A DNA stretch of 20,271 bases from a virus, in IMG/VR virus record IMGVR_UViG_3300020468_001924, positions 1 through 20,271 of that record; one strand, written 5' to 3'. Position 1 is the first letter of the stretch. Each line of letters starts with the position of its first letter. Of this stretch, positions 547-19,920 are shown piece by piece. The notes below the pieces were generated by a model that was given only the letters and a program-made list of their open reading frames with translations, did no database searches and was not told the origin of the DNA. Both the position numbers and the translations under genes were made by a program.

Positions 547-3500
547 TTATACACTTAATGCATTCGCTCCTGCACTTGCACCTGCCAAAGAATCTTTATC
601 TTGATATAATGAACCTCTAGTTGACATTCCGAAAGTATCATTTGAATAATCAAGACGATCAACTGTTGATTGTGGACCAGGAAGTCCACCTGCAAAATAA
701 CCAAAGAATTGATTTCCTGTTGCCGCTAATTTATTTCGTGACACAGTTAAACTAGCTTTTGGTGATGCTGCTGCAGTGTCATTACCGTAATCAACACGTT
801 CAACACGACTTGTATTTCCAAGACTACCACCACCTCCAGCAAAGTAACCATAATTTTGATTACCAGTTGCTGTAAGATATGTTCGATAAATTGATAGATT
901 TCCTTTTTGTGATGCTGTTGATGTATCACTTGCATAATCAATCCGATCTACTGTTGACCTGCTTGGTCCTCCACCACCAAAATATCCAAAGTTTTTATTA
1001 CCTGTTGCACCAGCATAAACTCTCGTTGTATTTAAATTTCCTTTTGGTGATGTTGCTGCACCATCATTTGAATAATCTAAACGATCTACTTTTGACTTAC
1101 TATCTCCATTTATATAACCGAAATCTAAATTACCAACTGCAGAAAGTTCTGAACCATTGTATGAAAGAGTACCAGTGTTAACAGCTGACAAACTATCATT
1201 TACAAAATCAAGTCTGTATATAACTGAATGTTCTGATCCACTTGAATTTGTTCCTCCACCCCAATAAGCAAAATTTTTGTTGGCGATTCCAAAACAAGAT
1301 TTTAGTTGTCTATTATTATTACCTATTGCAGGAGATGTATTCTGAAATCCTGATCTCTTCATTGACAACACGGTGTCATTATTAAAATCAATACGAGTAA
1401 TTTCAGATTTAACAGAACTTGGATTATATCCACCACCAAAGTATCCAAAGAACTCGGAACCAAATTTTTGTTGTGGTATTGGATATGATACAGGATATGC
1501 AGATGAGAATGTTTGAGAGAATCCATAATCTCTAGAACTAAATCCACCAGGAAATCTGTGAGGAACTGATAAATTTCCTTTTGGTGACGCATTTGCTGTA
1601 TCATTTGAATAATCTAAACGATCAACTGTTGATTGACCACTTGGACCTGGATATCCACCACCCCAATATCCAAATTCAGGATTACCCGCTGCTGACATTT
1701 GCCATCTTGCAGCACTTAATGATCCTTTTACAGCAGTTGTCACAGTATCATTACTAAAGTCTGCTCGATCCATTGAAGATATATCACTACCAGTTGTTCC
1801 ACCACCCCAATATCCAAAATCTTTATTTGCTGTTGCACCCATATTATCTTTAGTTTGATTCAATAATCCTTTTGTTGACGCAACTACAGTATCATTTGAG
1901 TATTCAATACGATCTATAGATGAAACACGAGAAGGTGTTTCTCCTCCTCCAAAATATCCGAAGTTACTATTTCCTGTTGCAGATGTGCCAGATCTAACTA
2001 ATGTCAAAGTTCCTTTAGGTGACGCAACTACAGTGTCATTTGAATAATCAATTCGATCTACTCCTGATGAATTACCCGAAGGACTTTGCCCTCCACCAAA
2101 ATATCCAAATTCATCATTACCTGTTGCAAGACTCTGACCTCTCTTAGGAGTACTCAAAGAACCTTTTGCCACCATCGCTGTGCTATCACTTGAATAATCA
2201 AGTCTGTCCACAGTAGTTACATAAGCAGGTGCTGCAGTGACTCCACCACCAAAGTAACCAAATTTTGTATTACCAACTCCTGCTGCTTTATACCTACCAG
2301 AAGTCATTGCTCCTTTTGGAGTTGCTGCTGAAGTATCACTTGCAAATTCAACTCTATCAACTGTCACCACTGCAGGAAAACCACCACCAAAATATGCAAA
2401 TCCAGTTCCAACCGTGCTCGTTGAGGGTACAGTACCATCAGTAAATTTTATTCTTTCAGTAAATGTGAATGATCTTTTATTTGATCTGGAACTATGACCA
2501 GTGTGAAGAATAGTAGTTTCACTTAAATTTCCCTTTGGAGATGCTGTTGTTGTATCACTTGAGTAGTCAAGACGATCTACTGTTGACAGATTCGGACTAG
2601 GATCAAAAGTACCACCCATAAAATATCCAAAATCTTTACTACCTGTTGCTTTAACATGATATCTATTACCACTTAAAGGTCCTTTTGGTGTTAATACTAT
2701 TAAGTCAGTAGCATAATCAAGTCGATTTAGAATTGACACCCCTGTAGTAACTGATGGAGTTGTTCCCCCTGCATAATATCCAAAGTCTTGATTACCTGTT
2801 GCACCTAAACGATTTGTTTCTGCTGGTAAATTACCAGCTGGTATACCTGTTGTTAAATCATTTGCAAAGTTTATACGACTTGATTGTGAGCTTCTATCAG
2901 TATCATTATATCTATTTCCACCGACAAAATATCCGAATAGTCCGTTTGAAGTAGAATCTCCATCAAATTTTTGTAATCCTATATTTCCTCTTACAGCAGT
3001 GTTTGTCAAATCATTTGAATAATCTAATCTTTGAACTATAGAATCATATGCAGGTGAGTTATCAGGATCTTTACCACCCCCAAAATATCCAAAATCAGAA
3101 TTTCCTGTTGCTTGCATACCACCCATTTTCTTTTGAAGATTTCCTCTTGGTGATGCTGTTGCTGTATCACTACTATAATCAATTCTTTGAATTGTACAAT
3201 ATCCTGGTGATGGAGAAGCTCCTCCTTGACCACCTACAACAAATCCAAAATCTTTATTTGCTGTTGCTGCTGCATTACCGGTTACTTGGCCAATATTTCC
3301 TTTGACCGCAGCAGTTGCTGTGTCACTAGAATAATCAATTCGATCAGTTTTAGTGCCATATCCTGTAGCACCTCCACTAGAACGATATCCAAATGCAGGT
3401 CCAAACTCAGGTGCTCCAAATGCAGTCGTTGTAATAGAGGTGGTGCCTGGTGCTGTGGTCGGTGCTGCATTTTCTCTGGAACTTACACCACCTTCCAAAA

Positions 3501-5457
3501 TATTTTGTTTCCTTGTAGTAAGATTTGTATAAAGAGATGCAGATGTATCATTTGAATAATCCATTTTCTGCAAAACACCATTCGGAGAAGAAGGACCAAC
3601 ACTTCCAAGAGCCCATATTGCAAGAGAAGTATTACCTGTTGCAGAACCACTTTGCCAACCACCATAAGCATTTGTTAATCCAACTTTATTAGTCATGGTC
3701 GAAGTATCACTTGCATATTCCATTCGAGTTACTTTGGAAGTGGTTGATGAAAAGACACCTGCATATCCATACTCAGCATTACCAGTTCCAGATCCGTAAT
3801 AACCATGATAACCCATGTTTCCCTTGGGTGATGTAGCCGCTGTATCATTCGAATAATCTATACGATAGGTATCTGACCGAGTTGTGAAACTAGGAAGGAT
3901 GCTTGAATTTCCACCCATGAAATAACCATAAGACTGATTTCCAACACCAGCCATACCAGTTCTCTTCGGCATGGTTGCTTTAGGAGATGTTGTGGAAGTA
4001 TCAGATGAATAATCTAGTCTTTGTATTCTTGAATCAAGATCGGTTCCTCCAGAAAAGTAACCATAACTAATGGTGCTTGCTCCCGCTCTATAACCTCCAG
4101 CTGCGGATAAGTTTCCTTTTGCAACTGTTGTTGTTGTGTCACTTGAGTAATCAAGTCTATCTACATTCGATACATCTTGTGACGGATCATACGATCCACC
4201 TAAGAATCCACCAGCCCAATATCCATAAGATGGACTACTTGCCCCTGCAGTAGACTTTCTTGGTGCTAATAAAGGACCTCTTACAAGTGCGGTTTCTAAG
4301 TTAGTATCAAAATCAATACGATCAACTGAACTATATTCAGTACCACCATAATTTCCTCCACCGAAGTAACCATAAGGGTTTCCAACTGGAACTTGTCCAG
4401 GTTGACTAAAAGTTGAAGATCCTGAAGTGGTTGGATTTCCATTATCTCTAGAACTAGTACTTGTTGTATAAGTTCTACCAGCAGATAAAGGACTTTTAAC
4501 CACTGCTGTTGCTGTATCATTACTGTAATCAATTCTATCTGTGGTTGTCCATCCAGTACCAGTATTCTCAGAAGGAGCTTTTCCACCAGTAAAATACCCA
4601 TGAGTGGTGCTGGAAAATGCGGAATGTGTGTATCTCCCTAAGGTCACTGGTCCTTTTGGTGACGTTGTTGATGTATCACTTGAGTAATCAATTCTTTGTA
4701 CATAGGTTCTCATATAAAAAGTATCTGATCCAGAACCAATATATCCAAAATCACCAGTGCCTGTTGATGCAGTTCTACTAATCTGATTAGCCAAAGGACC
4801 TTTTGGTGTTGCTGCTGCTGTATCATTTGAATATTGAATTCTTTGCACTGTTGTACCAGAAGTACTACTACTCCCACCAGCAATATATCCAAAAGATTGA
4901 TTACCTGTACCAGCCTGAAGAAAGACACCTGCGTCTGCTAAATTACCTTTTTCTACTGCTGTTGCTGTATCATTACTATGATCAATACGATCTATTGATG
5001 ATGTAGCACTAGGAGCGTAACCACCAGCAGCATATCCAAAATTAACATTACCCACTGGAACTGCGTAGTTCCTTGCAACACTTAAATTACCTTTTGGTGA
5101 TGTTTGTGTGGTGTCATTTGAATAATCAAGTCGATCTACTGTTGATAATTTTGTTGGTGTTCCTCCACCAGCAAAGTATCCAAAAGGTTGACTACTTGTC
5201 GAAGATAAAGATGAAGCAGCATTATTTAATGAACCTCTTACTAACATTGTTGCTGTATCACTTGAATAATCAAGTCGATCCATAGTTGATTGTCTAGCAA
5301 CAGGAATCATGGTAAATCCACCACCAGTATAACCATAATCAGTTCCTGCAGGATTAGCTATATCCTTAAAAACAAAAACATCGTTGATTGTTGAAGTTGT
5401 TCCGTTGATTTGTTTTCTATAAAATTGTTCGAGAGAGAATACACTTGACTTACTCAT
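547..5457 (-). CDS. Giant kelch-like repeat protein, probable tail fibre/virion surface protein (1636 aa)
   Basis: The ATG at 5457 is preceded by AAGGGG 11 nt upstream and lies 16 nt after the stop of the 2171-residue fibre gene. After an N-terminal segment of about 40 residues, almost the whole protein consists of ~50-residue repeats with the pattern FGYFGGG, then VDRLDYSNDT, then ASPKGNLS, then ATGN. I count thirty. The paired glycines after an aromatic and the ~50-residue period resemble kelch-type beta-propeller blades. An SSR-containing linker follows repeats 6, 12, 18 and 24, dividing the protein into five groups of six. Only two cysteines are visible (C754, C1388), unlike the neighbouring fibres. 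There is no signal peptide or membrane segment. Position next to fibre genes suggests a virion surface role, perhaps glycan or receptor binding. Similar repeat proteins are, from memory, annotated as structural proteins in cyanophages. The fold is inferred. Confidence 0.88.
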   Translation of the reverse strand: MSKSSVFSLEQFYRKQINGTTSTINDVFVFKDIANPAGTDYGYTGGGFTMIPVARQSTMDRLDYSSDTATMLVRGSLNNAASSLSSTSSQPFGYFAGGGTPTKLSTVDRLDYSNDTTQTSPKGNLSVARNYAVPVGNVNFGYAAGGYAPSATSSIDRIDHSNDTATAVEKGNLADAGVFLQAGTGNQSFGYIAGGSSSTSGTTVQRIQYSNDTAAATPKGPLANQISRTASTGTGDFGYIGSGSDTFYMRTYVQRIDYSSDTSTTSPKGPVTLGRYTHSAFSSTTHGYFTGGKAPSENTGTGWTTTDRIDYSNDTATAVVKSPLSAGRTYTTSTSSRDNGNPTTSGSSTFSQPGQVPVGNPYGYFGGGNYGGTEYSSVDRIDFDTNLETALVRGPLLAPRKSTAGASSPSYGYWAGGFLGGSYDPSQDVSNVDRLDYSSDTTTTVAKGNLSAAGGYRAGASTISYGYFSGGTDLDSRIQRLDYSSDTSTTSPKATMPKRTGMAGVGNQSYGYFMGGNSSILPSFTTRSDTYRIDYSNDTAATSPKGNMGYHGYYGSGTGNAEYGYAGVFSSTTSKVTRMEYASDTSTMTNKVGLTNAYGGWQSGSATGNTSLAIWALGSVGPSSPNGVLQKMDYSNDTSASLYTNLTTRKQNILEGGVSSRENAAPTTAPGTTSITTTAFGAPEFGPAFGYRSSGGATGYGTKTDRIDYSSDTATAAVKGNIGQVTGNAAATANKDFGFVVGGQGGASPSPGYCTIQRIDYSSDTATASPRGNLQKKMGGMQATGNSDFGYFGGGKDPDNSPAYDSIVQRLDYSNDLTNTAVRGNIGLQKFDGDSTSNGLFGYFVGGNRYNDTDRSSQSSRINFANDLTTGIPAGNLPAETNRLGATGNQDFGYYAGGTTPSVTTGVSILNRLDYATDLIVLTPKGPLSGNRYHVKATGSKDFGYFMGGTFDPSPNLSTVDRLDYSSDTTTASPKGNLSETTILHTGHSSRSNKRSFTFTERIKFTDGTVPSTSTVGTGFAYFGGGFPAVVTVDRVEFASDTSAATPKGAMTSGRYKAAGVGNTKFGYFGGGVTAAPAYVTTVDRLDYSSDSTAMVAKGSLSTPKRGQSLATGNDEFGYFGGGQSPSGNSSGVDRIDYSNDTVVASPKGTLTLVRSGTSATGNSNFGYFGGGETPSRVSSIDRIEYSNDTVVASTKGLLNQTKDNMGATANKDFGYWGGGTTGSDISSMDRADFSNDTVTTAVKGSLSAARWQMSAAGNPEFGYWGGGYPGPSGQSTVDRLDYSNDTANASPKGNLSVPHRFPGGFSSRDYGFSQTFSSAYPVSYPIPQQKFGSEFFGYFGGGYNPSSVKSEITRIDFNNDTVLSMKRSGFQNTSPAIGNNNRQLKSCFGIANKNFAYWGGGTNSSGSEHSVIYRLDFVNDSLSAVNTGTLSYNGSELSAVGNLDFGYINGDSKSKVDRLDYSNDGAATSPKGNLNTTRVYAGATGNKNFGYFGGGGPSRSTVDRIDYASDTSTASQKGNLSIYRTYLTATGNQNYGYFAGGGGSLGNTSRVERVDYGNDTAAASPKASLTVSRNKLAATGNQFFGYFAGGLPGPQSTVDRLDYSNDTFGMSTRGSLYQDKDSLAGASAGANALSV
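574..5346 (-). repeat. Thirty ~150-bp kelch-like coding repeats in five groups of six
   Basis: The approximate groups, in translation order, are 5346-4447, 4380-3475, 3399-2485, 2406-1531 and 1455-574 (residues 38-337, 360-661, 687-991, 1018-1309 and 1335-1628). Each holds six copies of the DRLDYSNDT-type core. Each of the first four ends in an SSR(D/E/S) tripeptide context and is followed by a Ser/Thr/Pro-rich linker of roughly 25 residues. The distance from one SSR to the next is 318-330 residues. Individual repeats have diverged, most in repeats 11-12, 16-17 and 25-26. Confidence 0.85.
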
Positions 5458-5468
5458 TTTATATTATT

Positions 5469-5474
5469 CCCCTT
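5469..5474 (-). promoter_or_regulatory. Ribosome binding site of the 1636-residue repeat protein
   Basis: AAGGGG lies 11 nt before the ATG at 5457 and overlaps the end of the upstream stop codon. It supports this start. The spacing is slightly long. Confidence 0.5.
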
Positions 5475-8400
5475 TAAGTGATTTTCTTACCAGATACTAT
5501 TACGTCTATCGTTCCTGCGGCTGCTGCGGTTTGTACTTTAACTGTTCCACCCGTCTCTAGTCTCTTTGGTCTATCTAATATTTCTACTGATGCATATCTT
5601 GGAACCACTAAATTCTTTGCAAGATGTATGGCAGTTGATCCGTTCACAAGTTGTATGGTGACAGGGAAATCTCCAGCATCAGTTCTGTTTGTTAATTTAA
5701 TTGATTGCAATACAGTTGGATTTGATGTTGATGTATATATGGTTGTAAGATCTGTGTTTGCAACACCAACAGTTGAACCATATCCTGCTACAAAATCAGT
5801 GCTCTCTTGTTCCTGATAACTTGCATAAAGTTCAAGAGCATCATTAACACCAGCGTATGATGAATCTGAAGCCCAAACTTTTACTACGTCAGATGGATTC
5901 ATGACCATAGGTTGCTTGAGTAGTTCTAATAATCCATTATCGGGAACAGGAACGTTGTAAGCTAGATAAACTTTTGTCTCACTACTGTATGTTGTCACAC
6001 CTGGATTTATTGATGCGATTACATTGACTGTACTACCAACACCAGAAGTTACATTTGCAACACTGATTGAATCTATTACATATCTCTTTGTATTATCCGG
6101 ACCAAATGTTATTACGTTTGTCTCATATCCATAAATGGTTGCTTGAATTGAACTTGTGATTCCAGTATTAAATTTATCTCCTGATCCTCCAGAGGCTGGG
6201 AGATTTGTTAGTAGAGATCCATCACCAACAAATGATGTTGCTGTTAGAACTCCAGTTATGTGAGCACCAGTTGATCTGAATGTTGATGCTGTTGCAACAG
6301 TTACATTAAAACCACTATCACCTGCTATCCAACGATTTGTGCCAGCACCAATTGCAAGTTGACAACTACCTGTTGCTGATGGTAATTGAACTGCACAACC
6401 GATTGCAACATTATAACAACCAGTAGTAAGTGTGCATGCTGTATATTTTCCTAAGAAGACGTTGAAACACCCAGTTGTCAGGCAACAACCTGCAGCAAAA
6501 CCGATTGCAATGTTATCATCACCTAAGACATTTGATGATCCATTACCCTTCATAGCACCCATACCAATGGCAATATTTCTTGTGGCAGATGACATACACA
6601 TCCCTGCTTGGGTACCCAAGATTACATTATCACCATCAGTTACTTTACATCCTGCCTGTGGACCTATTAATACGTTCCTATCACCACCACTACATGCTCC
6701 TGCATAACATCCAAGAACAACACTGTTACAAGTATTAGAATTTTGACCTGCTTTCTCACCAATATATACACTATACTGAGCAGTTGTAGTATATTGACCT
6801 GCACCAGCTCCAAGAAAGACATGACAACCAGTGTTGGTAAGACATGTACCAGCACATAATCCAATAATAACGTTCTTTATAGCTGTAGTCATTCTGCAAC
6901 CAGCAAGACGACCAAGAACTACATTGTACTTAGCTTCGGTCATGGCAGTACCAGCATAAGTACCCATGACGACATTATCGCAACCCGAAGTTAATGCCTT
7001 AGCTGCACTCATTCCAATAGCAATATTCAGACAACCTGTTCCAGCTGATGATGAAGCTCCAGAGTAATTACCAAGGAAAACATTTTGAATACCTGAAGTG
7101 ACACATTTACCTGCGTTAGTTCCTATCAATACGTTACATGCAGCACTTGTTGCAGCTCGTGCTGTCTGACTACCAAGCATGACATTACCAGTACCTGTTG
7201 CAGTTGTATCAGCATCACCACCAAGAGTTCCAGTTCCCATGGCAATGTTACTATTACCAGTGGTAAATCCTTGTGCTGCATTTCTTCCAAAGAATATGTT
7301 ATAACCACCTGAACTGATGTCTGCACCAGCATTTTTACCGATTGTAATATTTTGCTGACCAGTGACAGTACCAGTTCCTTGTGCCCCACAACCAATCGCA
7401 ATATTCTCAACACCAGTTGATATGGTCTTACCAGCAGCTGTTCCTATTAAAATGTTACAATCACCAGATGTTAATCCACATCCTGCATCACATCCGATTG
7501 CGACGCCTCTATCTCCCTCTGAGTTTCTTCCTGCTCCAGCACCAAGAAATACGTTATAACAATGATTGTCAACTTTACATCCTGCATCACATCCAATAAT
7601 AACATTGGCAATTCCAGAACCCAAACACCTTGCTGCCTTTTCTCCAAATGAAACATTGTAATTTCCTGTTTGAGTATTTCCACCAGCACCACCAGAGTAT
7701 CTACCAATCGCAACATTAGCAAAAGAATAAGTAGAGCAACAACCGGCACGATATCCTATGAGTACGTTAGCACCTCCACCATGCATACCTGCCTGTGTTC
7801 CAATAAGTATAGTATTATTACTACTACACGCACATAATCCTGCTTCACAACCTATGTAAACATTATTATCACCAGCACAATTTTTACATCCTGCCTGATA
7901 TCCAAGTGCAACGTTAAAACAAGTATCAGCATCAGAACAATTACCAGCCTCAGTTCCTGCATATAAGTTCTCTTGTGCGTCTGGAGTAAATCCAGCACCA
8001 GTCATCTGTGACGCATCACCGTAGAATTGATACGCAGATACAATACCAACACTTAACTTCGCAGTATTACCTACACCAACTGCTGCGTTTGGATTTGTGG
8101 TTCCGATACCAACGTTAAAGTCGCAGTTACCAACCATCCAGTAAGAAGATTCAACACCAATTACTAATTGACAACTACCTGTGTCTGATGGAGGTGTTGC
8201 ATTAACACCAATTGCAATGTTTTTACTTCCAGTTGATATACATTTACCTGCACCAACACCTAATGCAATATTACTGCTACCAGTCGCACATATTCCAGTA
8301 CCATTTCCCAAAAATGTATTATTACCACCTGATGTAATACTACAACCAGCGACTCTACCGATTAATGTATTACTACTACCTGAAGAAATTTTTCTACCAC

Positions 8401-11400
8401 TGTAATGACCCATTACCGCATTAAAATTACCTGAAGTAGAACCTCCATCTGCAGATCCTCCAAGAGCTTCTTGTCCAAAACCAATATTATAAGAACCATC
8501 TGCAGAACCACTACCAGTAATGTGCAGTCCTGCACAGGTGCCCATGAATATATTAGAGTGTCCGTTTGTAAGTTTTTGTCCTGCTCTAAGTCCAATTGCA
8601 ATGTTACAGTTACCAATACCACCGCCACTACCAAAAAGTGCACAGGTGCCCATGGCAATATTACAACTATTCTGTAATTTTCTTCCTGCGAATACCCCTA
8701 TTGCAACGTTACATAACCCTGTTGACATACAGCATTCTAAACTACCTGTACCAAGTGCGATATTATGACTACCACTTGTCAATTTCTTTGCTGGACATAC
8801 ACCTATGGCAATGTTACAACTACCAGTTACGAGGCCGTTACCACCAGCATAATATCCCATGAATGCATTCTTGGAACCACTTGTTAAGCACATTCCAGCA
8901 CGAGGACCAAATAATGCATTATAATTACCACTGGTCAGGTCATTTCCTGTTAGACAACCGATAACTGCATTACCACAACCAGTCATACAATCACTACCTT
9001 GACCACCATCATTATCAGAACCAATCATCACATTGTCTTTACCAGTGCTTAACTGCTTTCCTGCATATTGACCGATTAAAACATTACAACATCCAGTTGT
9101 TAAAGCATACGCAGCATAGTATCCAGCAACAAAGTTAAAATCACCAGTCGTATTACCTTGTTGTGCTTGTTCAGAACCTAAAAATATATTATAATCTCCA
9201 TTATTAACACCTGCCTTACCACCATCACCAATTATTATGTTCGAAGTTCCTCCAGTAAATGTTTTACCAGCATTTTTACCTATGTAAATGCTGTTTGCTC
9301 CTGATGTGACACAACATCCTGCAGCAAGACCGATAGCTATTAAATTACCAGCAGCATTATATCTTCCTGCGTCTTGACCTAAGTAAACACCTTGACAAGT
9401 ATCAGAGTCTATAGCTGCACCAGCGTTTGAACCTGCTACTAAATTCTCCTGTCCATCTGGAGGGAATGAACCAGAAATAGTGATTGTTGAAACACCAGCT
9501 GCACCGGCAGATGCAGTTGCCACAACAGCATCTCCAACAAAGTTAATTGTTGATACACTACCTGCGGTACCGACTGTTGATCCCTCATCTTTAACTGTTA
9601 ATCCACCAATCGCACCCGTTCCTGCAGCAGTAATACCTGTTAAATTTGATCCATCTCCATATAAAGTAGAGGCAGTAACTGAACTTATACCAGATATATT
9701 TGTTGAATTATCACCAATTATGTTTCCATTTGCGGTGATGTCACCTGTTACCACCAATTCACTAAATGTTGAAGTGCCACCTGTATTAATTCCAGTTGGT
9801 AAATTCGTTAGGTTTGCACCACTAATTGCAGGTAATGTTGCAGGGAACCTAGCATCTGGAATTGTACCACTTAAGTTTGATGAGGGGACTGTTCCACTGA
9901 ATGAAGTAGCACTTACAATACCAGTAGCAGCATAAACTGTAGCAATACCAGCAAGAGTTACGTTATAAGAACTATCACCAGTAATCCATTTGTTTGATCC
10001 ACATCCGATTGCTAATTGTGTAGAACCTGTTGTGGATGCCAGTGTAACTGAATGTCCAATCGCAATATTATTACTACCTATTGTTGTGTTAGATGCATGA
10101 TCACCTATGAAGATATTATAACTTCCTTCAGTATGTGCAAAACCAGACTTAGCTCCAATCGCAACGTTTGATATTGATAATTCTTGCCAATCGTATGCCA
10201 ACCAACCTGCACCTGATGAACATCCAGCACAGGAACCTAAGTAAGTGTTGCAACATCCTTTATTCCTGAATCCTGCAAGTGCTCCAACCGAAGTGTTATA
10301 ATTCTGAAGTGATGATCCGTACCCAGCTAAAGCACCAGAATTTGATCCAAGATATGTGTTGTAACAACCTTGTTCTACAAAACCTGAACAATTTCCTAGG
10401 AAAATATTTTCTCCACCAGTTGTTTTATTACTACACTGACCAGCTGTGCATCCAATTATAATATTATTACTTCTAGTGTTACAAAAACCAGCACATTTAC
10501 CAATAGTAATACCATATTGTACACCAGTACCACAATAACCTGCACAGAAACCAGCAAATACATTATAATCACCAGAATTTATATTAGCTCCTGCACAAGT
10601 TCCTAGAAAAATATTATGGACTGTTCCACCACCAATAGAGTTACCAGCAGCAAGACCTGCACTGACGTTGCATGTGCTATCACTCAATCTAGCAGCATTG
10701 ACTGTACCTGATGAAATATTAGATGCGTTTAAGTTTGTTAAATTTGCACCACTGATTGCAGGTAATGCACCTGAAAGTTTTGATGCGGTCAGTGTTGTTA
10801 TTCTTGCATCAGCAACTGTGCCTGTTAGATTACCAGCAGGAATACTTGTTAAGCTTGCACCTGAACCAGAGAATGTTGTTGCAGTAATAATTCCTGTGGC
10901 AGAAACACCTGCACCAGCATGAATACCTTGTCTTGCAGTTATGACACCTATTGAATCAATGCTTGTGACATCCTCATATGTTAAGGTACCACCGATTGTT
11001 ACATTACCAGAAACGGTTAAATTATTAAAATTACTTGTGCCAGTTGTACTGATACCAGGAATACTTAAGTTTGTTAATGATGAACCATCACCAGAAAATG
11101 TTGATGCAGTTACACCAGCAATACCTGTAATATTAGTTGAGTTATCACCTACAATATTTCCATTCGCATTTATATTTCCATTCGCATTTATATTTCCTTG
11201 AAATGTAGATACACCTGTAACTGTGAGATGATTGAATGTTGAACCACCTTCCGTGCTAATACCTGGTAGATTAGTCAGTGCTGAACCATCAATTGCAGGA
11301 AGTGCACCAGTCAAATTACCAGCAGTTAGATTAGTTAAGTTTGCACCACTGATAGCAGGAAGAGTTCCAGTTAAGTTTGCTGCTGGTAAATTTGTTAATC

Positions 11401-11989
11401 CAGAACCTGAACCAGAGAATGTGGTTGCTGTAAGTATACCAGATATAAATTGTTCTCCACCAATGATGTAAATGGTTCCAACCATTCCACCATGTGCTGT
11501 ACATTGATAATACAATCTTGATGGTGCATCATGCTGTACATTGAAAATTATATTACCACCAGCAGCTCCATTATTCGTAACACCTGTGTTGTATGCTGAA
11601 CCTCCTGATGCAACACGAATTTGAAATGGATGACTACCTCCAGAATGATTTGTAAAGATATATCTTTGTCCTCTTACCAAATATATGTCAGGATTATCAT
11701 CAGCTCCATCTTGACCTGGTCCTGTAAAACGATATGCAGAAGAACCGTTTGCAGTAACGTGCCAAGATACCTGAGCGTTAGAGTTTGCAGGATCAGCAAA
11801 ATAAGTAACTACTCCACTAACAGCAGTTACAATTCCTGCTGATGTTATACTTAATTTATTTCCTACCGTAAAATTTGTACTGACTGCGACTGTATTGGCG
11901 TTTAGATTTATATTGTTAGGACTTTGAATGGTCGGAGTACCACTTCCTAACAAATCTATCTGCTTTACACCAAAACTCTTATCTGCCAT
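5474..11989 (-). CDS. Giant modular tail-fibre-like protein with cupredoxin-like domain and Cys-rich beta-roll repeats (2171 aa)
   Basis: Domains in order: a ~60-residue N-terminus; a cupredoxin-like domain (about 73-176) with candidate copper ligands H120, C163, H166 and M169; linker repeats such as ATTFSGSGSGLTNL and PAISGANLTNL; a GTLTYEDVTSIDS segment (334-346); and three blocks of ~20-residue repeats of the form NIAIGxxAGxxLTSGxx at about 441-680, 844-1300 and 1336-1896. Blocks two and three open with PDGQENL or PDAQENL; the ends carry a motif like QLAIGxGxNRWIxGD. The C-terminus (1939-2171) holds two related beta-rich domains. I hand-count about 76 cysteines, nearly all in the blocks. 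The repeats resemble the trimeric YadA-type beta-roll, so a trimeric fibre is likely. No signal peptide or S74 chaperone is recognised. The ATG at 11989 lies 17 nt after the protease stop with only a weak Shine-Dalgarno. Host-surface recognition is inferred from architecture and context. Confidence 0.88.
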   Translation of the reverse strand: MADKSFGVKQIDLLGSGTPTIQSPNNINLNANTVAVSTNFTVGNKLSITSAGIVTAVSGVVTYFADPANSNAQVSWHVTANGSSAYRFTGPGQDGADDNPDIYLVRGQRYIFTNHSGGSHPFQIRVASGGSAYNTGVTNNGAAGGNIIFNVQHDAPSRLYYQCTAHGGMVGTIYIIGGEQFISGILTATTFSGSGSGLTNLPAANLTGTLPAISGANLTNLTAGNLTGALPAIDGSALTNLPGISTEGGSTFNHLTVTGVSTFQGNINANGNINANGNIVGDNSTNITGIAGVTASTFSGDGSSLTNLSIPGISTTGTSNFNNLTVSGNVTIGGTLTYEDVTSIDSIGVITARQGIHAGAGVSATGIITATTFSGSGASLTSIPAGNLTGTVADARITTLTASKLSGALPAISGANLTNLNASNISSGTVNAARLSDSTCNVSAGLAAGNSIGGGTVHNIFLGTCAGANINSGDYNVFAGFCAGYCGTGVQYGITIGKCAGFCNTRSNNIIIGCTAGQCSNKTTGGENIFLGNCSGFVEQGCYNTYLGSNSGALAGYGSSLQNYNTSVGALAGFRNKGCCNTYLGSCAGCSSGAGWLAYDWQELSISNVAIGAKSGFAHTEGSYNIFIGDHASNTTIGSNNIAIGHSVTLASTTGSTQLAIGCGSNKWITGDSSYNVTLAGIATVYAATGIVSATSFSGTVPSSNLSGTIPDARFPATLPAISGANLTNLPTGINTGGTSTFSELVVTGDITANGNIIGDNSTNISGISSVTASTLYGDGSNLTGITAAGTGAIGGLTVKDEGSTVGTAGSVSTINFVGDAVVATASAGAAGVSTITISGSFPPDGQENLVAGSNAGAAIDSDTCQGVYLGQDAGRYNAAGNLIAIGLAAGCCVTSGANSIYIGKNAGKTFTGGTSNIIIGDGGKAGVNNGDYNIFLGSEQAQQGNTTGDFNFVAGYYAAYALTTGCCNVLIGQYAGKQLSTGKDNVMIGSDNDGGQGSDCMTGCGNAVIGCLTGNDLTSGNYNALFGPRAGMCLTSGSKNAFMGYYAGGNGLVTGSCNIAIGVCPAKKLTSGSHNIALGTGSLECCMSTGLCNVAIGVFAGRKLQNSCNIAMGTCALFGSGGGIGNCNIAIGLRAGQKLTNGHSNIFMGTCAGLHITGSGSADGSYNIGFGQEALGGSADGGSTSGNFNAVMGHYSGRKISSGSSNTLIGRVAGCSITSGGNNTFLGNGTGICATGSSNIALGVGAGKCISTGSKNIAIGVNATPPSDTGSCQLVIGVESSYWMVGNCDFNVGIGTTNPNAAVGVGNTAKLSVGIVSAYQFYGDASQMTGAGFTPDAQENLYAGTEAGNCSDADTCFNVALGYQAGCKNCAGDNNVYIGCEAGLCACSSNNTILIGTQAGMHGGGANVLIGYRAGCCSTYSFANVAIGRYSGGAGGNTQTGNYNVSFGEKAARCLGSGIANVIIGCDAGCKVDNHCYNVFLGAGAGRNSEGDRGVAIGCDAGCGLTSGDCNILIGTAAGKTISTGVENIAIGCGAQGTGTVTGQQNITIGKNAGADISSGGYNIFFGRNAAQGFTTGNSNIAMGTGTLGGDADTTATGTGNVMLGSQTARAATSAACNVLIGTNAGKCVTSGIQNVFLGNYSGASSSAGTGCLNIAIGMSAAKALTSGCDNVVMGTYAGTAMTEAKYNVVLGRLAGCRMTTAIKNVIIGLCAGTCLTNTGCHVFLGAGAGQYTTTAQYSVYIGEKAGQNSNTCNSVVLGCYAGACSGGDRNVLIGPQAGCKVTDGDNVILGTQAGMCMSSATRNIAIGMGAMKGNGSSNVLGDDNIAIGFAAGCCLTTGCFNVFLGKYTACTLTTGCYNVAIGCAVQLPSATGSCQLAIGAGTNRWIAGDSGFNVTVATASTFRSTGAHITGVLTATSFVGDGSLLTNLPASGGSGDKFNTGITSSIQATIYGYETNVITFGPDNTKRYVIDSISVANVTSGVGSTVNVIASINPGVTTYSSETKVYLAYNVPVPDNGLLELLKQPMVMNPSDVVKVWASDSSYAGVNDALELYASYQEQESTDFVAGYGSTVGVANTDLTTIYTSTSNPTVLQSIKLTNRTDAGDFPVTIQLVNGSTAIHLAKNLVVPRYASVEILDRPKRLETGGTVKVQTAAAAGTIDVIVSGKKIT
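6302..7984 (-). repeat. Beta-roll-like repeat block C of the 2171-residue fibre
   Basis: Residues about 1336-1896 open with PDAQENLYAGTEAG and close with QLAIGAGTNRWIAGDSGFNV. This is the longest block and holds many cysteine pairs, for example AGCCLTTGCFNVFLG. Confidence 0.8.
8090..9460 (-). repeat. Beta-roll-like repeat block B of the 2171-residue fibre
   Basis: Residues about 844-1300 open with PDGQENLVAGSNAG and close with QLVIGVESSYWMVG followed by NVGIGTTNPN. The repeats follow the NVAIGVFAGRKL type, with occasional longer Gly/Ser insertions. Confidence 0.8.
9950..10669 (-). repeat. Beta-roll-like repeat block A of the 2171-residue fibre
   Basis: Residues about 441-680 hold repeats of the NIFLGTCAGANINSGDYN type. 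The block ends with QLAIGCGSNKWITGDSSYNV. Cysteines recur in IGxCAG and GCYNT contexts. An aromatic insertion (GWLAYDWQELS, near 595-605) interrupts the regular pattern. Confidence 0.8.
11162..11197 (-). repeat. Perfect 18-bp tandem duplication in the fibre gene
   Basis: The plus-strand unit attcgcatttatatttcc occurs twice in direct succession (11162-11179 and 11180-11197), with part of a third copy before it. It encodes a duplicated NINANG hexapeptide near residue 270, so the frame is kept. Replication slippage is the simplest explanation. Confidence 0.95.
11462..11773 (-). other. Cupredoxin-like domain within the 2171-residue fibre
   Basis: Residues about 73-176 begin near QVSWHVTANGSSAYRF and end at GMVGTIYII. 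The segment SHPFQI gives H120, and YYQCTAHGGMVG gives C163, H166 and M169. This is the His/Cys/His/Met set of type-1 copper proteins, with an amicyanin-like short C-x2-H-x2-M loop. The 43-residue spacing from the first His to the Cys is within the range of plastocyanin and amicyanin. Copper binding is inferred. Related HPF...YYQCTAH segments recur, as I recall, in other cyanophage structural proteins. Confidence 0.75.
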
Positions 11990-12003: not shown

Positions 12004-12011
12004 TATTTATG
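12004..12011 (-). promoter_or_regulatory. Candidate T4-like late promoter before the 2171-residue fibre gene
   Basis: CATAAATA differs from the T4 late octamer TATAAATA at one base. It overlaps the protease stop codon (TAA at 12009-12007) and lies 14 nt before the ATG at 11989, so the leader would be very short. In an AT-rich genome chance occurrence is a real possibility. Confidence 0.4.
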
Positions 12012-13851
12012 TTTGAAAAATTGATAATGAAGATCCATCTAATGTCAAAGAATCAATAGAAGGAGTGATGTTGTTTGCAAAAGGATTATATAAAATTCTT
12101 CGAGGAGAAGATTTCAAACTGTAACTGTTTCCCCAGTAATCTGTATCAGTTGCACCATTACTTGTGTAAGGATCATAATAATCACCTGAGGATAGCATTT
12201 CAGATCCCTCAGTTAGTAACCAATTTCTAACTGTTTTTCGATCTGCTGTGGGGTTCGATTGTAAATACAATGCAACAACACCTGAAACATTTGGTGATGC
12301 CATACTTGTCCCACTAATTGCATAATTATAAAATGAGTTGTTTCTAGGATCAGTATATCCAGAACTCCATGGACTCATAATAATATCACCAGCTGCCCAT
12401 ACGTCAATCGCAGGACCTCTGTCACTAAATGATGAACACCTCTCTTGACTACCAGATTGTCGATCAGTATCAATTGATCCAACAACTATGGCAGCATCAT
12501 CCTCACCTTGTTTTGTTACTGCAGGTGTGCCTATTCTATTATATTGGTTTGAATATCCTGATCCATATAATGCAGTCCCTGCTGTAAACTCGTTATCATA
12601 ATCATCACCATCAACAACATCACCTTTTCCTTTACTATTTCCAGCGGAACATATGAAAATAACGTTTTGACAATCTGCGTCATTTGCTAATTCATTTGCC
12701 TCTGATTGTCCAGATGTTTTTGTAGATTTAAATTCATAATAACTGCCTAAGTAAGTGTTCAAATAGTAGACGGCGGGAACGGCATTTGATGCTGCATCAA
12801 CTTGAGTGTTACTATATGAAGTCCCTCTAAAAGAAACAGTGTATGATAAATCTTTTCGAAAAAACTGTCTAAGACCCCAACTACAATTTACAACAGTAGG
12901 ATTTTTTCTACCAGTCTCAGGATTTACTGGTTTATTTTTATGCCAAACTTTAATATAATCAAATCCATCACTAGGATTTGCAAATCCCGTATCACTTCTA
13001 TCAACACATGCGATAGACCATATGTTTGCCTCAAAAGCAACACCAAATTGATTTCCAGCTGCTGTTCCAGCCACATGACTTCCATGATACATGGAACCAC
13101 CAGGTATAGAACTTCCTAATGCTTTTGCTGTCGTGTAATTTGATAATGATCCGGTGCCCGGTGCAACAAGACCTTCATCAGACCAGTTTATACCATAATC
13201 CTCAGCTCCATGTATTAGTATATCTCTTACTCTAGTATCATTTTTATCAGTAAAGGATGTAACACCTGGTTTAAGAAACTCAGGATGATCCCAACGACAA
13301 CCAGAATCCATGATTACAACATCAACATTCTTTCCTGTCAATGAATACTGTGAATCAGCACTTACAATTGTCCCTGTGCCAAAATTATTTGCACTAGATT
13401 GATGTCTGTAAACACCCCACTGAGTAAAATCAAGTGTTGAACCAGGATCTGATGAAGATGCTGTTCTTAAATTTCTACAATTATAATTAAATCTATTGAT
13501 GTCTGTATGTCTGTCAAATTCCTCATCATATTTTCTTTGTTCTAAAACAATATTATTATACATTGAAGATTGTTCTACCCAATCTACTTTCGAATGATTT
13601 TTTAAAATGTCTGCTTCATTTACAGACATAGAATAGACAGATCTTTTTGGTGAGTAATTCATTTCTGAAGTACAATCAATTTTTCGATTTGGAATATTAT
13701 CAATATTATTTTCATTAATAATATAATTATGAATCTCAGTCCAATCTAATTCATCTTTTACACAAACAGTAAAATTTTGAGGTGTGTCATCAGTTATGGA
13801 ATCATCAGATACTATAATTCTACCGGCAGAATTCAAAGATGTTGTTATCAT
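12007..13851 (-). CDS. Subtilisin-family (S8) serine protease with I9-like propeptide (614 aa)
   Basis: The catalytic triad is visible: D182 in VVIMDSGC, H256 in YHGSHVAGTAAG and S516 in SGTSMASPNVSGVVALYL. The oxyanion-hole Asn is N405 in CSAGNSKG. Residues about 26-95 (FTVCVKDELDW to ILKNHSKVDWVEQS) resemble the I9 inhibitor propeptide that guides folding and is then cleaved, so autoprocessing somewhere between about 95 and 140 is plausible. No signal peptide is visible, so release would be on lysis or with the virion. The chosen ATG overlaps the upstream stop as ATGA and has AGAGAGG 7 nt upstream; an in-frame TTG at 13872 would add seven residues but lacks this support. The gene lies between the two large beta-roll fibre genes, suggesting fibre maturation or attack on host surface proteins. 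Neither target is shown. Confidence 0.9.
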   Translation of the reverse strand: MITTSLNSAGRIIVSDDSITDDTPQNFTVCVKDELDWTEIHNYIINENNIDNIPNRKIDCTSEMNYSPKRSVYSMSVNEADILKNHSKVDWVEQSSMYNNIVLEQRKYDEEFDRHTDINRFNYNCRNLRTASSSDPGSTLDFTQWGVYRHQSSANNFGTGTIVSADSQYSLTGKNVDVVIMDSGCRWDHPEFLKPGVTSFTDKNDTRVRDILIHGAEDYGINWSDEGLVAPGTGSLSNYTTAKALGSSIPGGSMYHGSHVAGTAAGNQFGVAFEANIWSIACVDRSDTGFANPSDGFDYIKVWHKNKPVNPETGRKNPTVVNCSWGLRQFFRKDLSYTVSFRGTSYSNTQVDAASNAVPAVYYLNTYLGSYYEFKSTKTSGQSEANELANDADCQNVIFICSAGNSKGKGDVVDGDDYDNEFTAGTALYGSGYSNQYNRIGTPAVTKQGEDDAAIVVGSIDTDRQSGSQERCSSFSDRGPAIDVWAAGDIIMSPWSSGYTDPRNNSFYNYAISGTSMASPNVSGVVALYLQSNPTADRKTVRNWLLTEGSEMLSSGDYYDPYTSNGATDTDYWGNSYSLKSSPRRILYNPFANNITPSIDSLTLDGSSLSIFQT

Positions 13852-16800
13852 AATTGAACCTCTCTTCTCCAACGATAGGTTGTAAGTCCACTGATTCCAG
13901 TTTCAGGAGTGACCTGAAGTAAAACATTTCCACTACTTATTGTTGATCCAGCTGATACTAGTTGCGAATTACTAAACATAATCGCATACTCTTGAGATAA
14001 AGCTGTTGTTCCATTCTGCATTATAAGAACTTTTTGTGCCTGTGTATTTGCACCATTCTCAATGTGAACTGTGTACTCTGCTGTTTTATAGTTGACAGAT
14101 CCATATGCAAAACTATCAATATTAGTTGACACTCCAGCACTCGCAGTGAACGTGCCACCACCAGTGGCAATACCTGAAGCTAAAGCACTTCCTGCAGTTA
14201 TGATTCCTGTTATATTTGTACCATCTCCCTTAAATGATCTTGCTTCAAATTGCCCAGTTGATTTAGTAATCGTTGCGATACCAGATAAAGACACGTTGAA
14301 TGAACTATCACCAGTTATCCATCTATCATCAATCTGTCCAATTGCTAGTTGATAATCTCCAGTTGAACTGGCAACTCCAACACTATGTCCAATTGCAATG
14401 TTATAACTTCCAGTGGTTACATCACGGTTTGTATAACATCCAAATTGAATATTATGATTTCCTCCTGTGGTAAGACATCTACCTGACCAAAGACCCATCG
14501 AAATGTTATGGCAAGTTGATCCATTGGATGTATTACCATATCCTGCATATCTTCCAATAGCAATATTATCATTTCCGGTTACATTTGATTTTCCTGCTGT
14601 TTGACCATGATAAACGTTGTAACAACCTGTGGTTAAACATCTACCTGTACCAGAACCTGTCATTATATTATGATCACCATTAGTGATGCTTACACCAGCA
14701 GCATTACCTACTAATACATTACTACCACCAGAGCATAAACAACATCCTGATCCATCACCTACTACAACGTTATACTGACCACTACTTAAATCTTTACCCG
14801 CATAGCGACCTATTAAAACATTAGAAAGAGCAAAACCATTATCACCATCTGAATATGTGTCAGCACCTATTGCGATGTTATGAGTTCCATTTGTATTTGT
14901 TTTACCTGCACACCATCCAAGGAAAACATTACAACCTCCTGAATTAGTATTACAACCAGCTATATTTCCTAGAAAAACGTTACGATCACCTTCATCAATA
15001 TTAGAACCTGCTCCAGCACCTATTGCAATGTTCTGACAACCATCTTTTCCACTTGCACCTACTCCACGACCAGCACCATTACCTAAGAATATATTATCAC
15101 TACCATTAGCATTTCTTCCTGCATAATTTCCCATGAAAATGCTACAGGTTGAATTTGAATATTGTCCTGTTCTACAACCTAAGAAAACATTAAATGATCC
15201 ACTTGTTAAACAAGCACCACTTTGTTTACCAATTAATACGTTGTTATCACCTGCATTTAATGAAAATCCTGCACTAAATCCAACACCTACGTTGAAACAT
15301 GTATCACCATCTTTGCATGCTCCAGCATTCGTACCAGCGAATAAGTTCTCTTGACCATCAGGACTGAATGAATCAGTGACTGTAATAATAGCTTTATTAG
15401 CACCTGATGCAGTTGCAGTAATAGATGCACCTTGGAAATCTAAAGTTTTTATAGATCCTGCCGTACCTACTGTTGATGTCTCATCTTGAACTGTAATACC
15501 TGAAATAAGAGTTCCACCACCAGTTCCAGTTAAATTAGTACCATCACCATAAAAAGATGTTGCAGTTATGATACCAGTGGTATTCACTGATGCGGTAGTG
15601 GTTAATCCTGTAGCAGTGACATTAGATAGATTTGCACCTGAACCATAAAAACTTGTTGCTGTGACTGAATTTATTCCAGATATATTAGATGCAGAATCAC
15701 CAATTATATTTCCATTCGCATTTAAAGCACCTAATACTGTTAGAGAGGTTAATGATCCAAGTGAAGTTATATTTGCTTGTGCTGCAGTTAAAACTGTTCC
15801 TGATAAATTACCTGTTACATTACCAATTAAAGATCCATAATATGTTGTAGCTCCAACAGTGCTAATACCAGATATAATTGTTGCATTATCACCCGTAATA
15901 TTTCCATTCGCATTAATATTACCACCAAAGGTTGAAATACCAACTACATTGAGTGTCGATGTGCTTACATTTAAAGTATTACCTACACCAGTTAAATTGG
16001 AACCATCTCCATAATAAGTCGCACCAGTGATTATTCCTGCAGTTGTGACCCCTGTGATAATTAAATTGTTAAATGTAGAACTTGCTGCAGTATTAATTCC
16101 AGTGTCTACATTAGCTACTATCGTTGCAATTCCAGAATTAAATGTGACATCAAGATTTGTTGAAAAATCAATTGTACCTGCAGTTCCAACTGTTGATCCA
16201 CTATTTTTAACTACCACACCAGAACCTGATGCAGTTACTCCAGTTAATTGACTACCGTCTCCTTTAAAAGATGCTGCAGTAACAATGCCTGTAAAACTAC
16301 CTTGTTTCGCAAAGAAGGATGGAGAGGTAACAGTTGTTAATCCTATGAATGTGGATATACCATTTACATTTAATCCACCATTGGAAGCAGTTGTTATGTC
16401 TATGCCACCACCAAGAACTTTGATACCTGACCTTGCAGTGATCATACCAACTGAATCTATATTAGTTACATCTTCATAAGTAAGAGTTCCACCGATGGAT
16501 AAACTACCACTAAATGTACCATCTGTAGCAGTGAAAACACCTACGTTATATTTTTCTGTTCCTGTTCCTACAATTCCGTTTGCTTCTTTATTTACTAATT
16601 CATACCATGCACCACCATGAGCAAAATATGCCTTTTGAGTAGCATGAACATGAGCAAATGCACCATGATAAGTTGCAGCCGATGGTAAGTCAGTGTAATT
16701 ACTGTATAGGAATGGAATTACGTTACTTGTCGCAGCACCTACGATTCTTCCATTTGAATCAATAGTGCTCGAAAATGTTGAAACACCAGATACAAATACA

Positions 16801-19541: not shown

Positions 19542-19549
19542 TATTTATT
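19542..19549 (-). promoter_or_regulatory. Candidate T4-like late promoter before the structural gene cluster
   Basis: AATAAATA differs from TATAAATA at the first base. It overlaps the HNH stop codon (TGA at 19551-19549) and lies about 46 nt before the ATG at 19495, a reasonable leader length. It would drive the structural genes separately from psbD and the HNH gene. Confidence 0.45.
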
Positions 19550-19920
19550 CAAGTAGCATTGTTGCGTCTTGGACGATATGAAAATAAATTTTTAGGAGGG
19601 TCTGGTTTCATCCAATCCTTTATTTTTTCATATCTATCAAAAGTAAAATAGTCTTGATTTAAAAACCATTCACTCCAAGGTTCATGTCCTTTCTTTTGAT
19701 TGCAACTGTTACAACAACAGACTACATTTTTAGTAAAATCTGTTCCTCCTTTGCATCTAGGAACTACATGATCTATAGTTAAATTCTCACCACTCCCACA
19801 ATATGCACATTTATAATTCCATTTTTCTTTTACGTCTTTCCTCCATAATCTCTTTGCTTCTGCTGAACTAGTTGTTTGTAAATTGAACACATAAGCTTTG
19901 GAAGAATGGAGAATGCCCAT
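19549..19920 (-). CDS. Free-standing HNH endonuclease (123 aa)
   Basis: The HNH fold is clear: C38-x2-C41 (CAYC), then D50-H51 in LTIDHVVPRCKGG, N65 in the KNVV segment, and C70-x2-C73 followed by N74-QKKG. The two Cys pairs probably bind a structural zinc and H51 lies at the metal-dependent nicking site. Residues 1-35 (AEAKRLWRKDVKEKWNYK) form a basic helix, and a basic tail (YRPRRN) ends the protein. The gene sits downstream of psbD, separated by a terminator. In Synechococcus phage S-PM2 an HNH homing endonuclease (F-CphI) is linked to the psbA region, so a homing role at a photosystem gene is plausible here. No intron is visible. The alternative is a general phage HNH nuclease. Confidence 0.9.
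   Translation of the reverse strand: MGILHSSKAYVFNLQTTSSAEAKRLWRKDVKEKWNYKCAYCGSGENLTIDHVVPRCKGGTDFTKNVVCCCNSCNQKKGHEPWSEWFLNQDYFTFDRYEKIKDWMKPDPPKNLFSYRPRRNNAT

Follow-up and report, generated by a model that had tools for sequence, protein, structure and literature searches.

Cupredoxins are known as electron carriers and as enzyme domains. Amicyanin (TIGR02657; PDB 3ply, 1aac), which shares with the phage domain described here a Greek-key barrel, all four ligands and a C-x2-H-x2-M loop of the same length, works as a free electron carrier in the periplasm and has a signal peptide, whereas the phage domain is internal to a virion protein. The closest solved fold is found in the three-domain nitrite reductase of Hyphomicrobium denitrificans (2dv6, 6tfo), at residues 24-132, which we take to be the extra N-terminal cupredoxin domain of that protein; there it is part of an enzyme, whereas the phage protein has no nitrite reductase domains. 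Cyanobacterial and cyanophage plastocyanin (PetE, PF00127) is alike in fold and ligands, but it is an exported protein with an HNV context and a longer C..H....M loop, and the same phages encode it separately; in cyanophages it has been published as an electron transport gene (PMC3037559). Metal in a tail protein, as predicted here, is also found at the iron-binding HxH motifs of T4-type fibres (T4 gp37, alterophage R22Y), and marine phages have been proposed to carry iron, but the HxH site, with octahedral His in a trimeric fibre, shares neither fold nor ligand set with the domain (PMC11705849). Finally, the baseplate wedge tail fibre connector family PHROG 677 has the domain in common with the protein studied here, but the carrier protein differs, and the role of the connector's C-terminal part is not described in PHROGs.

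The window, that is, the whole stretch of DNA analysed, is a viral record of 20,271 bases with its tail genes on the minus strand. An open reading frame of 2171 aa (5474..11989, minus strand) encodes a fibre or tail-spike-like protein, which matched PHROG families of tail spikes (3.7e-70), virion structural proteins and tail fibres. The protein begins with a short anchor segment (residues 1-50, MADKSFGVKQIDLLG..., 11840..11989, minus strand) that starts other proteins at related loci too, among them stand-alone genes made up of anchor and cupredoxin. The cupredoxin-like domain of ~105 residues (residues ~70-180, 11450..11782, minus strand), delimited by profile match, model and best solved folds, is placed between this anchor and the long repeat body. 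Our family profile A1 matched the fibre protein with an E value of 2.4e-48 at positions 76-179 of the stop-to-stop frame; these are residues 73-176 of the protein, the segment at 11462-11773 to which a preliminary description of the sequence had assigned a cupredoxin-like domain and all the ligands of a type-1 site. A profile search found no second copy of the domain within the 20,271-base window.

The repeat body that follows (residues 440-1876, 6362..10672, minus strand) is of the Cys-rich GxNxxIGxxAG type and contains 75 of the protein's 76 Cys. These 75 Cys occupy preferred phases relative to the N..IG motif, and a Cys-rich fibre shaft of this kind is unusual. A subtilase-family (S8) gene (12007..13872, minus strand; Peptidase_S8 E 8.4e-30) with its D, H and S motifs intact immediately precedes the fibre gene as transcribed, 17 bases upstream of it. 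Elsewhere in the window, a 1636-aa protein (547-5457, minus strand; PHROG 19111, function unannotated) consists of repeated FGYFGGG ... RxDYSNDT units and is likely another repetitive fibre, and an HNH endonuclease gene (19549-19920, minus strand; HNH_5 E 1.8e-12), possibly a homing endonuclease, stands among the tail genes.

The fold of the domain was predicted with AlphaFold2 for residues 70-177, using an alignment of 67 relatives from viral contigs, and the model has eight strands, a mean pLDDT of 95.7 and a pTM of 0.88. In the numbering of the model, H51 stands after strand 4 and before strand 5, C94 ends strand 7, and H97 and M100 lie in the loop between strands 7 and 8, and type-1 copper proteins have the same order of ligands relative to strands. 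From this topology, together with the alignment, the four residues are expected to converge on one site. The top Foldseek matches in the PDB were rusticyanins, plastocyanins, copper nitrite reductase, pseudoazurin, laccases and a purple cupredoxin, with a probability of 1.00, and superposition with VIA-align 2 on residues 24-132 of 2dv6 gave a Z of 11.6 and an rmsd of 2.0 Å over 95 residues. As modelled, the segment is thus a real cupredoxin-fold domain that should fold independently. A model of a whole connector protein (393 aa) was poor (pLDDT 63, pTM 0.28) and was left out of the analysis. When the domain model was searched against BFVD, small "beta-sandwich proteins" of pithovirus- and marseillevirus-like genomes also matched it (TM 0.67-0.69).

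Taken alone, the window domain had no significant match in Pfam, NCBIfam (including TIGR02657) or the PDB, and its link to cupredoxins therefore rests on the family profile and on the fold. Against the PDB, the family profile matched copper nitrite reductase (5e-5), plastocyanin (5e-4) and amicyanin (1e-3), and a profile of genuine cyanophage plastocyanins matched it with an E value of 1.2e-5 and with all four ligands paired. Among 39 members searched singly, 13 matched the NCBIfam amicyanin model TIGR02657 (best E 7.7e-5; the window member is not one of them) and 11 matched Pfam Copper-bind (PF00127).

The four predicted ligands are H120 (N-terminal His, 11630..11632), C163 (thiolate, 11501..11503), H166 (C-terminal His, 11492..11494) and M169 (axial Met, 11483..11485), all on the minus strand and each confirmed at its codon; they lie in the contexts SHPFQI (H120) and YYQCTAHGGMVG (C163, H166 and M169). 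H120 is kept in 105 of 105 non-redundant copies and pairs with the His of cyanophage plastocyanin; C163, H166 and M169 are likewise invariant. The CxxHxxM loop is of amicyanin length, and one or two residues longer in a few members. Six columns, H, P, Y, C, H and M, do not vary across the 39 members. The larger set of 105 copies, in which no two reach 80% identity (pairwise mean 48%, minimum 17%), leaves only 5 of 109 columns unchanged throughout, namely those of the four ligands and of a Tyr at position -2 relative to the Cys, and mean column conservation is 58%. C163 is the sole Cys in residues 1-439, and the family has no second conserved Cys; a disulphide role for this residue was therefore rejected.

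Because some of the loci had been fetched by patterns that contain the motif, and the set was biased to that extent, the search was repeated with only the stretch before H120. Of the 86 distinct copies found with this half, 85 had both parts of the site, the remaining one being cut by a contig end, and when all loci were seeded on the N-terminal half, the four ligands were present in 121 of 121 complete distinct copies. Judged by these alignments, the conservation of the ligands in the family is not due to chance. The preliminary description thus proved correct in its reading frame, strand, residue numbers and motifs, and its central claim is borne out by the fold model, the profile matches and the strict conservation of the ligands. 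It had proposed superposition on solved cupredoxins, which are indeed the nearest structures to the model, and had named the loss of His, Cys or Met in homologues as contrary to its reading; all copies in both the non-redundant and the half-seeded sets keep all four.

Tail proteins are rich in metal-free beta-sandwich modules, and the domain might be a co-opted fold of this sort, a spacer or adhesion module without metal in which packing accounts for the conservation of the four residues. Related domains do persist without C, H and M, in 12 copies in neighbouring baseplate genes, but in the domain family itself the ligands are invariant against a mean column conservation of 58%, and the way in which C, H and M come and go together in the relatives fits a metal site, not packing. 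We consider a metal-free module quite unlikely. The relatives in question are more distant cupredoxin-like segments within large proteins encoded near the tail fibre connector. One divergent group has H and C-H-M in 40 distinct copies; a sister type of 12 copies has kept the first His and has no C, H or M, and 1 further copy has none of the four. Partial C/H/M sets were found in none of these divergent copies (40 + 12 + 1); the counts are of related sequences, and the joint losses may therefore be few events. As far as the alignments go, such an all-or-none pattern is what a metal site would predict, and packing would not. At six loci (L076, L117, L137, L075, L246 and L065), divergent segments of both kinds occur within one large protein downstream of the connector, for example YLVCYNHSGM with the C-H-M residues and KLYYFDRTVNSLDKG without them.

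Four invariant residues, His, Cys, His and Met, together with a loop of amicyanin length would form a type-1-like metal site. We strongly infer that the domain binds a metal, and the metal is most likely copper. In vitro, Zn and other ions can enter type-1 sites, and another metal, such as zinc or iron, might occupy the site and serve only for stability or for metal docking. Metals in tails have precedent in the iron at the HxH of the T4 fibre and in the iron proposed for marine phages (PMC11705849), but the ligand set and loop length seen here are those of copper proteins, and the 2171-aa window protein has no HxH motif; we regard a metal other than copper as unlikely. The domain suggests that the particles of these marine phages carry metal.

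How widespread is the domain? Depending on the query, tblastn found it in 326 to 364 of 50,697 phage records, mostly of Synechococcus and Prochlorococcus phages, with a few of Pelagibacter and Methylophilales phages and some marine single-cell records; among the matches listed, every phage record with the domain is marine. The preliminary description had mentioned similar segments in cyanophage proteins, which was right and understated. The C-terminal quarter of PHROG 677 is the domain (E 1e-35, profile positions 302-409), and in many marine T4-like cyanophages it forms the C-terminal end of the connector. The window protein is not a whole PHROG 677 connector, as it has a different anchor and no N-terminal NDGTGD segment. 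Furthermore, the domain recurs in fibres, spikes and small stand-alone genes and often adjoins a phage subtilase; P-SSM2 has four copies in tail spike and fibre genes, in addition to its own petE. Distinct complete frames from viral contigs fall into 36 that start with NDGTGD and carry the domain at their end, 24 with the domain close to the N-terminus, and 61 in which its position is internal or unclear. The module is mobile among phage structural genes. It has become a regular component of the tails of marine phages, especially of T4-like cyanophages.

The order seen in the window, a subtilase followed by an anchor plus cupredoxin protein, occurs at 21 loci by our count, where 4 to 29 bases separate the two genes; several of these loci are overlapping stretches of the same contig. 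The pair is present in P-SSM2, Sf-CH8 and S-SCSM2R, and in other phages the domain is fused to the subtilase (PHROG 9158). In S-SCSM2R and in one further locus (L103), the second protein of the pair consists of anchor and domain only, in frames of 168-175 residues; therefore, the module can exist without a fibre body. A bacterial origin of the domain was considered and rejected: five loci turned up in a scan of 84,980 species genomes, each on a MAG contig, and the four of them that were scanned with PHROGs were all phage-like, with tail, head or baseplate families. As the species-genome loci are MAG contigs, four of them with phage structural genes, this branch of the fold looks phage-specific.

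Could the domain be a captured plastocyanin that takes part in the photosynthetic electron transport of the infected host? Fold and ligands are common to both, and a stand-alone copy in S-SCSM2R is annotated PetE. On the other hand, genuine PetE genes with signal-like N-terminal sequences are separately present in 6 of the 10 phage genomes tested, whereas the tail copies have no signal-like N-terminus and lie within structural genes, and the best of those in P-SSM2 scored 19.8 bits against PF00127, below the cut-off of 21.2. Nor is the window domain a PF00127 match above cut-off in a small exported protein, as a plastocyanin would be. It also differs in context from an amicyanin, which would be exported and encoded with methylamine dehydrogenase; it sits in a fibre gene among tail genes. 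Capture of a working plastocyanin is thus highly improbable, and we disfavour equating the virion domain with phage PetE, from which it is distinct and with which it often shares a genome. A viral nirK considered as a possible mislabelled copy of the domain was set aside, being a genuine reductase according to PMC8115048.

We propose instead that the domain is a passenger module of the tail, which may stand behind a short N-terminal anchor, at the C-terminus of a connector, inside a fibre or as a small stand-alone virion protein, and which is presumably present in the virion of the window phage. Having no signal peptide, it would fold inside the host cell, in the cytoplasm, and would take up copper probably there or else from the lysate and seawater. 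Free copper is normally all but absent from the cytoplasm of a host, which counts against this explanation. The metal would lock the small beta-barrel and so provide a joint or contact surface at the junction of baseplate and fibre. The 61 complete frames that hold the domain far from the ends, at internal or unclear positions, weaken the idea of a joint. A structural role is preferred to electron transfer because no partner is known and the domain occupies several structural places, and to plastocyanin function because the same phages keep a separate exported PetE. The domain is most likely a metal-binding, structural or docking virion module; given a bound metal, the structural or docking role is a guess to which we would give somewhat over one half. 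The explanation as a whole, a tail cupredoxin module with a type-1-like copper site that acts as a structural joint, seems to us a little better than an even bet.

A more exciting role, possible but without direct support here, would be a host-facing one, in which the copper serves docking to a copper-uptake component of the host surface, cell-surface redox, or metal sensing during adsorption. The location of the domain in connectors, fibres and spikes is compatible with such a role, as is the marine origin of all phage records listed with the domain, and a comparable iron-based "Trojan horse" idea has been put forward for marine phages (PMC11705849). Nevertheless, no partner, receptor or redox chain was found, the hosts are diverse (Synechococcus, Prochlorococcus, Pelagibacter, Methylophilales), and the connector, which need not touch the host, carries the domain as well. 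We judge a host-facing copper function rather unlikely and find no support for electron transfer or metal sensing by the domain.

It is likewise doubtful that T4-like marine phages are copper-bearing in the full sense, with many type-1 centres per virion in baseplate and fibres and with the metal active in infection. If they were, the metal would act as a ligand for docking to the host's copper uptake or as a redox switch in adsorption, and the viruses would also be a pool of bound copper in the sea. In the open-access literature, to which the search was confined (subscription journals and preprints were not covered), we found no report of a virion cupredoxin, plastocyanin-like or blue copper domain. 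For a phage-specific branch to serve as a virion part, with a metal site that is never lost, would be novel for the cupredoxin fold, and some of the ocean's most abundant phages commonly carry the domain. It also calls for care in annotation, since a tail gene may be taken for PetE. In S-SCSM2R the name PetE is given to two genes: gene 1, whose N-terminus is signal-like, encodes a genuine plastocyanin, and gene 202 (L060 2800-3306; PQ898602.1 170926-171432), which adjoins a peptidase S8, encodes an anchor plus cupredoxin tail protein and looks misnamed.
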